Source of the DNA: Roseburia sp.
GTDB lineage: Bacteria; Bacillota_A; Clostridia; Lachnospirales; Lachnospiraceae
Length of the DNA: 16,749 nt
Reading direction: 5' to 3'
Assembly (NCBI GenBank): GCA_017547315.1
Contig: JAFYQA010000012.1
Coordinates: 1 to 16,749, forward strand
Every line of letters begins with the position of its first letter. Position 1 is the first letter of the stretch. Position numbers and translations under genes: made by a program. A model generated the notes under the pieces. That model did not search any database. It was not told the origin of the DNA and was given only the letters and a program-made list of their open reading frames with translations. Shown here one piece after another: positions 6,258 through 11,208 of this stretch.

Positions 6258-7226
6258 ATGATGAGAGAAGAAGAATTAAGTGTAAAAAGTGAAAAGAGCT
6301 TTTGGGAAGGCAGAGCTGCAATAACTTGTGTTATTGCAGTTACTGCCTTTTTGTGCTTTTTTACGGTGTTTGAAATCTTTGTAATTAAAATGGAGTGGAA
6401 TCTGCCGGTTATGAGGGCGCTTATTGGTGGTTCTGAAAATTTTATTTTTTCTCAGTACAGAGAGGAAGAAGAACAATTGGAATTGAGTACGGAGAATGAA
6501 ACAGAGGAGATAGAGTCTGCACTAAGACCTTCCGATGTTACTGTTAGTATAGTTGATACAGAAACTTTAACAAGTGAAGAACAGGTAGAAGATATTACAG
6601 ATACACAGATATTATCGACGGAAAATATAGTAGATACCGAGAGTATGCCTGGTGAGGAAAATACTGTGGATGCAGAGCGCGATACTGAAACCGAGAAAGA
6701 AGAACTGCTACCGTATTATATCAAAATTAACCGTCAACAGAATGTGATTACCATATATGAGCCGGATGAAAATGGAGAATATACCATACCTGTAAAAGCT
6801 ATTTTATGTTCTACCGGTTTATATAATGCGACACCAAGAGGTGTGTTTCATTTGTCTTCAAAATATATCTGGCGAGAATTGCATGGCGGTGTGTATGGTC
6901 AATATGCGAGTCGTATTACGGGGGGCGTTTTGTTTCATTCTGTACCTTATGCAAGCAAGAACAAATCTACACTATACTGGGATAAATATAATAAACTGGG
7001 GCAGCAGGCTTCTATGGGATGTGTACGTCTGACGGTGGAGGATGCAAAATGGATTTATGATAATTGCCCGTCCGGTATAGCAGTAGAAGTATACGATAGT
7101 GAGGATCCAGGGCCGCTTGGCAAGCCGGAGACGCTGAAATTGGATAAGGATAATGTGAATAAAGGTTGGGACCCTACAGATCCGGATGAGAAAAATCCAT
7201 GGCATGAGTGGTCGAAGGATGGTTGA
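6258..7226 (+). CDS. Membrane-anchored L,D-transpeptidase (YkuD domain)
   Basis: 322 residues. A single transmembrane helix at about 20-43 (AAITCVIAVTAFLCFFTVFEI) lacks a lipobox or clear cleavage site, so it is probably a signal anchor. Residues 65-150 form an acidic Glu/Thr/Ser-rich linker, likely spanning the wall. The YkuD catalytic domain occupies ~153-280: YYIKINRQQNVITIYEP, TPRGVFHL, catalytic-region H227 and nucleophile C255 in SMGCVRL. The usual S-H-G-C signature has Met in place of His. The tail (~285-322) is Asp/Pro/Trp-rich. Such enzymes cross-link peptidoglycan or attach proteins to it. It starts 3 nt after lysC with no good ribosome binding site, suggesting translational coupling. 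A terminator-like hairpin lies inside codons ~17-31. Confidence 0.88.
   Translation: MMREEELSVKSEKSFWEGRAAITCVIAVTAFLCFFTVFEIFVIKMEWNLPVMRALIGGSENFIFSQYREEEEQLELSTENETEEIESALRPSDVTVSIVDTETLTSEEQVEDITDTQILSTENIVDTESMPGEENTVDAERDTETEKEELLPYYIKINRQQNVITIYEPDENGEYTIPVKAILCSTGLYNATPRGVFHLSSKYIWRELHGGVYGQYASRITGGVLFHSVPYASKNKSTLYWDKYNKLGQQASMGCVRLTVEDAKWIYDNCPSGIAVEVYDSEDPGPLGKPETLKLDKDNVNKGWDPTDPDEKNPWHEWSKDG
6307..6349 (+). terminator. Terminator-like hairpin inside the 5' end of the L,D-transpeptidase gene
   Basis: AAGGCAG 6307-6313 pairs with CTGCCTT 6343-6349; CTGCAATAAC 6316-6325 pairs perfectly with GTTATTGCAG 6330-6339 around a TTGT loop. That gives 17 bp with one small internal loop (AG opposite TTA), followed by T-rich sequence (CTTTTTGTGCTTTTTT). 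Shape and tail are those of an intrinsic terminator for lysC transcription, but it encodes the membrane anchor of the next gene. Confidence 0.5.
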
Positions 7227-7240
7227 ATCATGTTACGTGC

Positions 7241-7282
7241 AAAAGATTAGGCGACATTCAAATATTTTTATTTGATGCCGCC
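7241..7282 (-). terminator. Intrinsic terminator of the candidate ncRNA
   Basis: Read on the minus strand, GGCGGCAT plus CAAATA pairs with TATTTG, a bulged A, then ATGTCGCC: 14 bp with one G-U pair and an AAAA loop (7250-7282), followed by TAATCTTTT (7241-7249). The plus-strand side lacks a T-tract, so it serves minus-strand transcription. Confidence 0.65.
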
Positions 7283-7402
7283 TGTTAAGCTATTTCGTCC
7301 ATGGGACCTTTTACCTCTCTTTAATTTTTTAGGTGTTTTAATCTTTTCTTTTTAAAAGATTTTTCCTGAAAACGATTATCTTTTCGTCCTAAACTATTGA
7401 TT

Positions 7403-7487
7403 TCAATTTTTAAAAGTTTTCTTCTTTTTCGCTTGTTTTTTATAGAAGTTATTCCTCTTCTCAATTTTCTAAAGTTTTCTTCTTTTT
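7403..7487 (-). repeat. 27-nt direct repeat within the candidate ncRNA
   Basis: 7403-7429 and 7461-7487 are identical at 25 of 27 positions, offset by 58 nt, and share an exact 17-nt core (minus strand AAAAAGAAGAAAACTTT). Purine-rich, so partly low-complexity, but the length and the identical trailing A/T pattern suggest a duplicated RNA module. Confidence 0.55.
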
Positions 7488-7769
7488 GGACTTCTTCGTT
7501 TCTAAATAATGACTTCCGATTTCTGTTCTACATATAGCACCTTTCGAATCGTATCATATAAGATAAGAATTAGTTCATGGTCTGATACTTATTCTCTTTT
7601 TCCCTTATTGGTTCCGGCTACGTTTTCCTTCTTTATCAAGATTTAAAATCGAATGCGGTTAAGTTTTTGTTGGACCGTACCTCTCTTTCTTAGATTATGA
7701 AGTTAAGATTTACGTTTCTGGTGGTTTGTACCTTCCTTTCTGTAAGTCTTATTTGTTTTTGTTAAGTTC

Positions 7770-7798
7770 ATTATATCTGTCAATTTAGGATTTGTCAA
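7770..7798 (-). promoter_or_regulatory. Full-consensus sigma-A promoter driving the candidate ncRNA
   Basis: On the minus strand TTGACA (7793-7798), 17-bp spacer, TATAAT (7770-7775): twelve of twelve consensus bases at optimal spacing. The predicted start is near 7763. It is the best promoter in the window and no protein gene lies in front of it. Confidence 0.75.
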
Positions 7799-7940
7799 CT
7801 ATTATTTTAAAAATATTTAAAAATAATTTTATAAAAGTGAGTTAATTACCTGAAAAATATAAAATATTCAGAAAATATAAAAAGAAATAATTATTTGCGC
7901 AAAGTAAAAAATTTTAGGGAAGATGAAAGATGGCATAGGA
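7799..7940. other. AT-rich spacer between divergent promoters
   Basis: No gene seen. The sequence is nearly all A/T, with an imperfect dyad around 7850-7871 (CTGAA..TTCAG). It separates the leftward ncRNA promoter from the rightward dpaA promoter. Confidence 0.5.
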
Positions 7941-7967
7941 ACTTAAGGAGACCTTTCTCATATAATA
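7941..7967 (+). promoter_or_regulatory. Candidate sigma-K promoter of dpaAB
   Basis: CATATAATA at 7959-7967 fits the sigma-E/sigma-K -10 pattern CATAnnnTA, with AC (7941-7942) 16 nt upstream as expected for the sigma-K -35. Mother-cell, late-stage expression is what is known for dipicolinate synthase. The start would fall near 7973, leaving a short leader that begins at the ribosome binding site, so geometry is tight. Confidence 0.5.
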
Positions 7968-7991
7968 TGGTGAAGGGAGCGTAATTTTTTT

Positions 7992-8840
7992 ATGGAAAAA
8001 CAGACAATACTTTTGATTAGCGATATGCGACAGGTTTATCTGGCTGAGATTCTTACCAAACGTGGCAATCATGTGCGCTGCCTGGATATCAGAAATCAAA
8101 ATGCGATGAAAGAACAATTAATGAAGTTGAAAGTATTTTTGAATGAGGCAGATGTACTCATCCTCCCAATTCCTGTTACAAAGGGAATCGAAAAGGATGA
8201 TTTGAATGAGATATTAAATAAAAATGTGAAAAACGATACGATTGTAATGGGTGGCTGTTTTCTTCCGGAACAGCAGAAGATTTTGATGGAACGTGGAATT
8301 CGTTATTTGGATTTCATGGAAGATGAGGTAGTGACAGAAGAAAATGCAGTGGCTACCGCAGAAGGTGCCATTGCAGAACTGATTCGAAACTGCCCATACA
8401 ATATCGAAGGGTCTAAAATCATCGTGACAGGTTATGGCTGTTGTGGTAAAGCGATTGCAAAAAAACTGGGTGCATTGGGAGCAAGGGTAACAGTGCTTGC
8501 AAGGCGCAGTGAGGTTCGAAAACTGGCAAAACAAGATGGATTTTATGCGGTAGATTTTGCGTTTGGACCGGAAGAGGCGATGGGTGCAGTAATGCTTGTG
8601 AATACCGTTCCGGCTCCAGTGGTGACAAAACTCATAATTCGGGAATTGCCGAGGGACGCTTATATTTTAGATATTGCATCGAATCCGGGAGGATGTGATT
8701 TTGCTTGTGCAAAAGAAAGTGGAATATCAGCAGATCTTGTGTTAGGAATTCCAGGCCGTTTTTCTCCGAAAGCCAGTGCCTATATTCTGGCGCGGGCAAT
8801 GGAAAGGTTTACGCTCGTTGACAGTGATGGAAAGGCATAA
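7992..8840 (+). CDS. dpaA: Dipicolinate synthase subunit A
   Basis: 282 residues, close to Bacillus SpoVFA (about 297). With DpaB it oxidises dihydrodipicolinate to dipicolinic acid in the mother cell; the product is loaded into the forespore as its calcium chelate and gives heat resistance. A Rossmann dinucleotide motif GYGCCG sits at 147-152 inside SKIIVTGYGCCGKAIAKKLG, followed by VTVLARR; upstream ATAEGAIAELI (121-131) and downstream DIASNPGGCDF match the DpaA family. The fold resembles D-2-hydroxyacid-type dehydrogenases, but the GGC-rich N-terminal lobe and the immediate DpaB partner support the specific call. Start ATG 7992 follows AAGGGAG 7973-7979 by 12 nt, slightly long. The candidate sigma-K promoter is just upstream, and dpaB begins 3 nt after the stop. 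Confidence 0.94.
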   Translation: MEKQTILLISDMRQVYLAEILTKRGNHVRCLDIRNQNAMKEQLMKLKVFLNEADVLILPIPVTKGIEKDDLNEILNKNVKNDTIVMGGCFLPEQQKILMERGIRYLDFMEDEVVTEENAVATAEGAIAELIRNCPYNIEGSKIIVTGYGCCGKAIAKKLGALGARVTVLARRSEVRKLAKQDGFYAVDFAFGPEEAMGAVMLVNTVPAPVVTKLIIRELPRDAYILDIASNPGGCDFACAKESGISADLVLGIPGRFSPKASAYILARAMERFTLVDSDGKA

Positions 8841-10884: not shown

Positions 10885-11142
10885 TTATTGCTGAGAAGCT
10901 TCTAACGCTTCACGACAAGCACGTGCTAACTGGTCACCACAAGAGGTTCCGCGTCCGTTACAAGAGATGCCTTTGATACGAGCTTCTACTTCTTCAACAG
11001 TGAGACCTTCTACTAATTTTGGAATAGCCTGTAAGTTACCATGGCAGCCACCTGTGAATACTACGTTGTGTACTACGTTGCCATCTAATTCTAATTCGAT
11101 AAGTCTAGAACAGGTGCCTTTTGTTTTGTATGTATATTTCAT
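10885..11142 (-). CDS. Small TSCPD-domain protein (TIGR03905-like)
   Basis: 85 residues from ATG at 11142, preferred because an AAAGGA site lies about 9 nt upstream and homologues start MKYTYKTKGTCS; a longer frame to 11208 would run through the promoter. Conserved features: C11 in KGTCSR, TGGCHGNLQAIPKLVEG (31-47) with C33, and GISCNGRGTSCGDQLARA (59-76) with C61, C68 and C76. The TSCxDQLA element is the TSCPD domain, which also occurs at the C-terminus of some class II ribonucleotide reductases; the stand-alone protein has no proven function. The cysteines suggest metal or redox chemistry. It is monocistronic, with its own promoter and terminator, and lies divergent from secA. Confidence 0.88.
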   Translation of the reverse strand: MKYTYKTKGTCSRLIELELDGNVVHNVVFTGGCHGNLQAIPKLVEGLTVEEVEARIKGISCNGRGTSCGDQLARACREALEASQQ

Positions 11143-11179
11143 GATGTGTTCCTTTCTGTGTATTTTTATATTTCTTTCT

Positions 11180-11208
11180 AGTATACAAAGCAAGAGTAGA
11201 TTTGGCAA
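11180..11208 (-). promoter_or_regulatory. Sigma-A promoter of the TSCPD-domain gene
   Basis: Minus strand TTGCCA (11203-11208), 17-bp spacer, TATACT (11180-11185): ten of twelve consensus bases. The leader is about 30 nt. Confidence 0.65.

Follow-up and report, generated by a model that had tools for sequence, protein, structure and literature searches.

In the cry3A mRNA of Bacillus thuringiensis, a strong Shine-Dalgarno (SD) sequence near the 5′ end, the so-called STAB-SD, contacts the 3′ end of the 16S rRNA and binds the 30S subunit without starting translation, the bound subunit blocking RNase J1 (PMC4113751). In lambda bar, a start codon is followed by AUA and UAA, and its expression is toxic, with tRNA held as peptidyl-tRNA (PMC8012679). 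Large structured bacterial RNAs such as OLE, ROOL and GOLLD offer another point of comparison. Finally, 6S RNA acts as an RNA decoy for RNA polymerase.

The RNA reported here, present in a 16,749-nt stretch of Roseburia sp. DNA (GenBank assembly GCA_017547315.1, contig JAFYQA010000012.1; hereafter the window, with relative loci designated by L numbers), can be set beside all of these. Like the STAB-SD, 105 of the 121 internal SD units recognized in its family carry a strong SD with no ATG, GTG or TTG at the start position, but they differ from that 5′-proximal element in being tandem, in having a fixed start position and stop, and in belonging to a stand-alone RNA with a mini-ORF at its end. 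As in lambda bar, an SD, a start and a stop lie within a few codons (in the final unit of 90/90 RNAs and in 16/121 internal units), and an AUA codon recurs; unlike the two-codon bar, the mini-ORF is mostly of five codons and abuts the terminator, and most internal units lack an initiator. As a large structured bacterial RNA it resembles OLE, ROOL and GOLLD, but it gives no match at the Rfam gathering score, in the window or within the RNA in 40 relative loci, and its inferred length ranges from 131 to 779 nt (median 386 in 75 RNAs); the likeness to OLE and ROOL drawn in a preliminary description, made from the letters of the window, holds for size and for nothing else. The likeness to 6S RNA, which likewise gives no Rfam match here, would be one of working principle only, the proposed target being the 30S subunit.

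The Rfam search proposed in that description covered the 4227 families of Rfam 15, which we take to include OLE, ROOL, GOLLD, raiA, 6S and tmRNA, and returned no match in the window at the gathering cut-off. In the 40 relative loci the search found just two elements, a ZMP/ZTP riboswitch in L063 and a tRNA in L189, both apparently outside the RNA by their position. A lax search of positions 7150-7950 brought up snoR120, PreQ1, MIR5291 and XIST A, all four below threshold and all rejected.

The predicted RNA gene upstream of dpaA

The predicted gene of ~520 nt occupies positions 7763-7241 of the minus strand, with its start point inferred from the -10 box, and is flanked by a convergent L,D-transpeptidase gene (YkuD, Pfam PF03734; 6258-7226, plus strand) and a divergent dpaA (Pfam PF16924; 7992-8840, plus strand), both of them context outside the RNA. 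The full-consensus promoter noticed in the preliminary description is indeed present as TTGACA-17-TATAAT at 7798-7770 (minus strand; -35 box 7798-7793, -10 box 7775-7770), a 12/12 match and the sole full match in 6400-8800, where six promoter-like sites were found against 7.0 expected. The terminator, described beforehand with a 14-bp stem and a T-rich tail, was recovered as a stem-loop at 7283-7249 (minus strand), which in the MFE fold has 15 bp with one bulge, starts 1 nt past the stop of the mini-ORF and is followed by the T-rich tail at 7248-7241; this stem-loop was absent from the output of a simple terminator scan.

The claim that the interval has no usable reading frame is right for long frames, since the longest minus-strand stop-to-stop stretch in the gene, of 68 codons, is not kept (the nearest relative, L001, has 41 codons at most), but it overlooked an SD-bearing ORF of five codons at 7302-7285. 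Short frames, though defective, also occur in the interior of the RNA. A homologue in which the RNA strand encodes a protein was also looked for, and an open frame of at least 80 codons spans the 3′ element on that strand in one of 81 family loci (L104). On the opposite strand, open frames of at least 80 codons cross the 3′ element in 13 of the 81 loci, probably as a by-product of the purine-rich strand. The folding energy gave z values of -2.59 for the minus strand and -2.23 for the plus strand; both being about equal, it decides nothing, and it is comparative evidence rather than folding energy that settles the reality of the predicted gene.

Three elements covary in the Roseburia-type core, defined from 12 related sequences: P1 is a long-range helix, P2 an inner helix and P4 a hairpin. 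P1 joins TTCG-a-TTTTAAAT (7653-7641, minus strand, as are all elements of the body) to ATTTAGAA-a-CGAA (7507-7495). P2 joins GTAGC (7621-7617) to GCTAT (7538-7534) and reads TGAC/GTCA in most relatives, and P4 is the hairpin GAAT..GTATCA/TGATAC..ATTC at 7594-7546, a stem already listed in the preliminary description; each of these two helices has three pairs changed on both sides. The small helix P3 is weak (68% paired), and the GAAGTCC that follows P1 (7494-7488) is kept in 10 of the 12 copies. The whole drawn structure shows 12 pairs changed on both sides against a shuffled mean of 7.7, with none of 500 shuffles as high and with 3-6 such pairs when the structure is slid, a result favoured by the structure having been drawn on the same 12-sequence alignment on which it was tested. 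Another measure shows no rise: further pair types number 32 against 30.3, and 154 of the 500 shuffles reach that level. Covariation among homologues is in this way present in the Roseburia-type copies. Two other stems of the preliminary description fared less well: AAGA-c-TTAC/GTAA-a-TCTT exists and encloses the first SD unit, with a sequence that is recognizable, within the homologue alignment, only in the window, L001 and L002, and AATCTTTT/AAAAGATT sits in a variable stretch that most aligned homologues from dpaA loci lack. A purine-rich stretch at 7487-7323 varies in length and sequence and is mostly gaps in the relatives.

In other lineages the body differs, and the units and the mini-ORF stay. 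A hairpin with the loop UGACGAGAAAG/TGACGAGAAAG occurs in 20 of 89 RNAs (0 in 1800 shuffles), flanked by stems of 3-16 pairs. In sum, the proposal of an undescribed large structured RNA between the L,D-transpeptidase and dpaAB genes stands, with a covarying structure, no Rfam match and an apparently independent gene, but the most conserved parts of the RNA are the repeated SD units and the 3′ mini-ORF rather than its ornate folding.

Distribution and genomic context in Lachnospiraceae

A DpaA scan of genome contigs gave 13 loci. In ten the record title names Roseburia, R. inulinivorans DSM 16841 among them, and in the other three it reads Lachnospiraceae bacterium (two) or Clostridiales bacterium (one). 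Homologues upstream of dpaA, which the preliminary description had recommended collecting, were found in 11 of these 13 loci on the strand opposite to dpaA, the copy in L013 being truncated where its contig ends; L005 and L012 have contigs that stop short of the RNA position, hence their absence from the count. A covariance model of the 3′ block built from 12 sequences (R1) finds the RNA in all 13 genomes of this set and, at E ≤ 1e-4, in 90 of 397 genomes sampled from Lachnospiraceae, the family of R. inulinivorans in the NCBI taxonomy. A wider model of the 3′ end built from 85 sequences (R2) matched 160 of the 397 at E ≤ 1e-3, and among 20 R2 matches in genomes missed by R1, a script rule recognizes a mini-ORF in 19, and 18 contain an internal unit. 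The internal unit, written as an exact 20-nt pattern, occurs in 44 of 387 of these Lachnospiraceae genomes and its reversed control in none of 387; since 33 of the 44 are also among the 160 of R2, the union amounts to 171 genomes, the exactness of all these genome counts being limited by draft genomes and strict filters. At the class level, 9 of 391 genomes matched, five of which also belong to the family draw; the other four were read by hand, and L157 and L159 are likely real and L161 and L162 false. Phage and plasmid records searched for the RNA gave no match, nor did viral contigs searched with one 3′ pattern.

R. inulinivorans DSM 16841 carries one copy (L003), at about 1513-2055 of contig NZ_ACFY01000117.1, some genomes carry two or three, and tandem copies were found in L007, L015 and L088. 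In L007, two whole tandem copies lie upstream of dpaA (L007:7036-8014), and the second has a diverged P2-P4 region with the units and the mini-ORF kept. The analyses below use 90 RNAs, namely 12 Roseburia-type copies and 78 family matches, after three of 81 family matches (L142, L148 and L151) without a recognizable mini-ORF had been left out beforehand.

Roseburia-type genomes carry the RNA upstream of dpaA; in other Lachnospiraceae its site varies. The nearest called genes vary between loci, with neither identity nor orientation conserved: in 81 loci with crude gene calls, the upstream neighbour is on the minus strand relative to the RNA in 40, on the plus strand in 39 and missing in two, and the downstream neighbour is on the plus strand in 43 and on the minus strand in 38. 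These varied neighbours, with their orientation split about evenly, indicate a free-standing RNA rather than a leader. A cis-acting leader, attenuator or leader peptide was rejected, given that a downstream gene on the same strand is found in only 43/81 loci, that the genes are varied and that in the window the L,D-transpeptidase gene is convergent. Within 760 nt, a promoter scoring 11/12 or better is present in 76 of 88 RNAs, two of the 90 having been omitted for contig ends that are too near, as against 32 of 692 control windows drawn anywhere in the loci, genes included. Promoter and terminator are conserved across the RNA family while the neighbour genes are not.

Elsewhere in the window, a PD-(D/E)XK nuclease family transposase (PF12784; 9477-10544, minus strand) is sited between dpaB and secA, and the matching interval of L002 measures only ~0.1 kb by a blast map. 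A TSCPD-domain gene lies at 10885-11208 (minus strand), and in L074, L079 and L083 the called gene closest to the RNA on its upstream side is an ORF of similar sequence, which is probably a shared neighbourhood.

Internal Shine-Dalgarno units and the 3′ mini-ORF

The internal unit is a repeat of ~30 nt with a strong SD, a fixed spacer, a start-codon position that is usually CCR and an in-frame stop that is usually codon 4. The window has two on the minus strand: unit 1 at 7737-7706, with AGGAAGGTACAAACCA followed by CCA GAA ACG TAA (CCA at the start-codon position; PWM score 33.8), and unit 2 at 7686-7655, with AGAGAGGTACGGTCCA followed by ACA AAA ACT TAA (ACA at that position; score 37.6). 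A weight matrix recognizes 121 distinct units in 84 of the 90 RNAs and 0, 0, 0, 0 and 1 units in five mono-shuffled controls; the consensus by eye is AAAGGAGGUACrGWCCACC(G/A)AAAACnUAA. The start position holds CCA in 54 units, CCG in 31, ATG in 13, AAG in nine and other triplets in 14. The first stop falls at codons 2-8 in frame in 110 of the 121 units, the corresponding counts for the two other frames being 23 and 53; in 93 units a stop occupies codon 4. The 16 units with ATG or TTG are all closed ORFs of 2-6 codons. Unit arrays reach five or more in L163, L165 and L170, loci found from the internal pattern alone, and the shortest RNAs (131-144 nt) keep the final unit together with 0, 1 and 1 internal units.

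With a 16S tail read in L153/L154 and ending in ...GCGGCTGGATCACCTCCTTTCT, the internal SDs pair with a median of -13.9 kcal/mol (122 sites, two counted twice), whereas gene starts gave -10.0 (429, crudely called) and random sites -4.8 kcal/mol (400). A pairing of the whole motif, beyond the SD, with the 16S tail plus h45 was dropped by eye on viewing that tail. A CsrA-type reading based on GGA sites was set aside because GGA is missing from many internal units, which read GAGAGG. A search with alifold for a fold shared by the internal units gave none.

The RNA ends in a final unit that, in the window, comprises the SD segment AAAGAGAGG..GTCCC plus the mini-ORF (7322-7285, minus strand; covered by R1 and R2), the mini-ORF itself being ATG GAC GAA ATA GCT TAA (M D E I A; 7302-7285). 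In the 90 kept RNAs, from which those lacking one had been excluded, a mini-ORF is always present at the 3′ end: 74 are of five codons, 13 of six and the rest of 7, 8 and 10, with starts ATG (79), TTG (9) and GTG (2) and stops TAA (50), TAG (31) and TGA (9), and 89 have RRGG 8-14 nt ahead of the start. The five-codon peptides are often MD-S/E-IV, and in the mini-ORFs as a whole residues after the first position are acidic in 37% and basic in 2% of cases. In the GUCC/GGAY hairpin round the start codon, 92% of cells are paired, and all 12 pairs of the terminator stem covary across the family. The stop codon abuts this stem in 70 of 85 RNAs, as counted in an alignment that had been fitted to the model. 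By an automatic rule for an SD and mini-ORF abutting a hairpin, 50 of 80 final hairpins qualify, against 24 of the 1736 remaining ones in these loci. Among the 44 pattern-bearing genomes, the loci examined were 23 from genomes missed by R1, plus L164; the automatic rule succeeds in 12 of the 23 and eight more fit by eye (L172 weakly), which makes 20, and L176, L182 and L183 do not fit. In L183, a UGACGAGAAAG hairpin occupies the expected place of the terminator, directly after a short ORF. A second type of mini-ORF, which begins M I E (e.g. MIEES..) and lacks the GUCC spacer, was seen in L164, L171, L179, L180 and L184, where it also abuts the terminator by eye or by the automatic rule.

Possible roles at the ribosome

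The repeated strong SDs, the kept frame, the missing internal initiators, the genuine mini-ORF in last place and the position of its stop at the hairpin can be read directly in the sequences, and from them we infer an internal capture of 30S subunits, the seating of a ribosome at the 3′ end and a decoy or parking role. These features suggest that the gene encodes an undescribed kind of RNA that engages ribosomes. The pathway would start with 30S subunits binding the internal SDs, where they would be unable to start. In internal units with AUG or TTG, a ribosome would begin and then stop at once. Finally, the last unit would be translated, and the ribosome would meet the terminator hairpin while terminating. 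In this way the RNA would hold or buffer initiating 30S subunits and ribosomes, as a decoy or parking RNA acting at the translation step, akin to 6S RNA for RNA polymerase. That a free-standing Lachnospiraceae RNA has ribosome-landing sites as its working parts and plays such a decoy or parking role is put forward tentatively, with a probability that we place a little short of even. A more specific version, in which the RNA would serve the whole family as a 30S decoy through tandem false starts and a minigene of about five codons seating a ribosome at the terminator, with the number of units tuning its capacity, seems to us rather unlikely.

The engagement of 30S subunits with a decoy or parking role is favoured because it is the units and the mini-ORF that are near-universal and multiplying, and not the body. 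Some data count against it: six of the 90 RNAs have no internal unit at the threshold used; the final SD pairs with only gene-like strength (-10.3 against -10.0 kcal/mol); and the covarying Roseburia-type body is more than a simple decoy requires. Moreover, the CCR at the start position and the GUACrGWCC spacer are conserved beyond the need of a bare SD decoy, and therefore another reader, either a protein or a local fold, may act. A separate explanation is that the units are binding sites of an unknown protein that happen to include AGGAGG, with ribosomes irrelevant there. The GUACrGWCC and CCACC kept beyond the SD would agree with this, as would the CC of GWCC, universal in the units accepted by the matrix but demanded by the seed pattern. 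However, a protein site would leave unexplained the kept frame of the stop codon, the occurrence of the same units as AUG/TTG variants and the plainly ORF-like last unit, and we regard this explanation as improbable.

The units could also act as stabilizers, with parked 30S subunits blocking a 5′-3′ exonuclease, the ribosome on the mini-ORF shielding the 3′ hairpin and the structured body being the functional part. The STAB-SD of cry3A offers a precedent, internal units are often close to the 5′ end (median start 77 nt past the -10 box), and the bodies hold conserved structure, either P1, P2 and P4 in the Roseburia core or, elsewhere, elements such as the UGACGAGAAAG hairpin. Yet a single SD would be enough for this purpose, a fixed stop codon is not required, some RNAs are nearly without a body, and lineages that differ in body share the units and the mini-ORF; such a stabilizing function is possible, though we are inclined to doubt it. 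The very short ORFs may instead be a device for peptidyl-tRNA drop-off that ties up certain tRNAs, a growth brake like lambda bar. Two-codon units (AUG-AAA-UAG and AUG-AGA-UAA) do occur in L170, and the isoleucine at codon 4 of the mini-ORF is encoded by AUA in 56 of 57 cases, while AUA accounts for 16% of isoleucine codons in the long open frames found at family loci. This bias, however, arises in part from the model, whose source sequences carried AUA, and it belongs to the MD-x-I-V class and is not universal: 19 further mini-ORFs have isoleucine at codon 4 in only three cases, all AUA, and several at the 23 pattern-found loci lack AUA. Since, in addition, most internal units are missing a start codon, we regard a role of this kind, too, as improbable.

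If the 30S decoy or parking role were true, about four in ten of the sampled Lachnospiraceae genomes (160/397) would carry an RNA that touches ribosomes through repeated mock start sites, in a family that includes major gut butyrate producers. It would represent a new means of setting translation capacity, it would imply that ORFs of minimal length can belong to the conserved components of RNA machines, and it would provide a marker for tracking in gut transcriptomes.

A last point concerns possible earlier sightings of the RNA. Literature searches found no description of it, although it may be among the candidates in published supplements, above all those of PMC8040213. Fremin and Bhatt (2021) reported 3161 intergenic candidates (PMC8040213), among which fragments of the RNA may be present, unnamed. 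On cellulose and corn stover, a transcript below cphy2658 has the strongest transcription start of Lachnoclostridium phytofermentans, another member of Lachnospiraceae; the authors of that study suggested it to be non-coding (PMC5171806, section 7), and it may or may not be the same RNA.

Outside the family draw, the likely RNAs of L157 and L159 have a TTG mini-ORF (M E I S E and M E I L N) that the terminator abuts. Their body is quite different, with repeated GTGGCTTAAGCTTCAC-like stretches, and perhaps they form a sister class.
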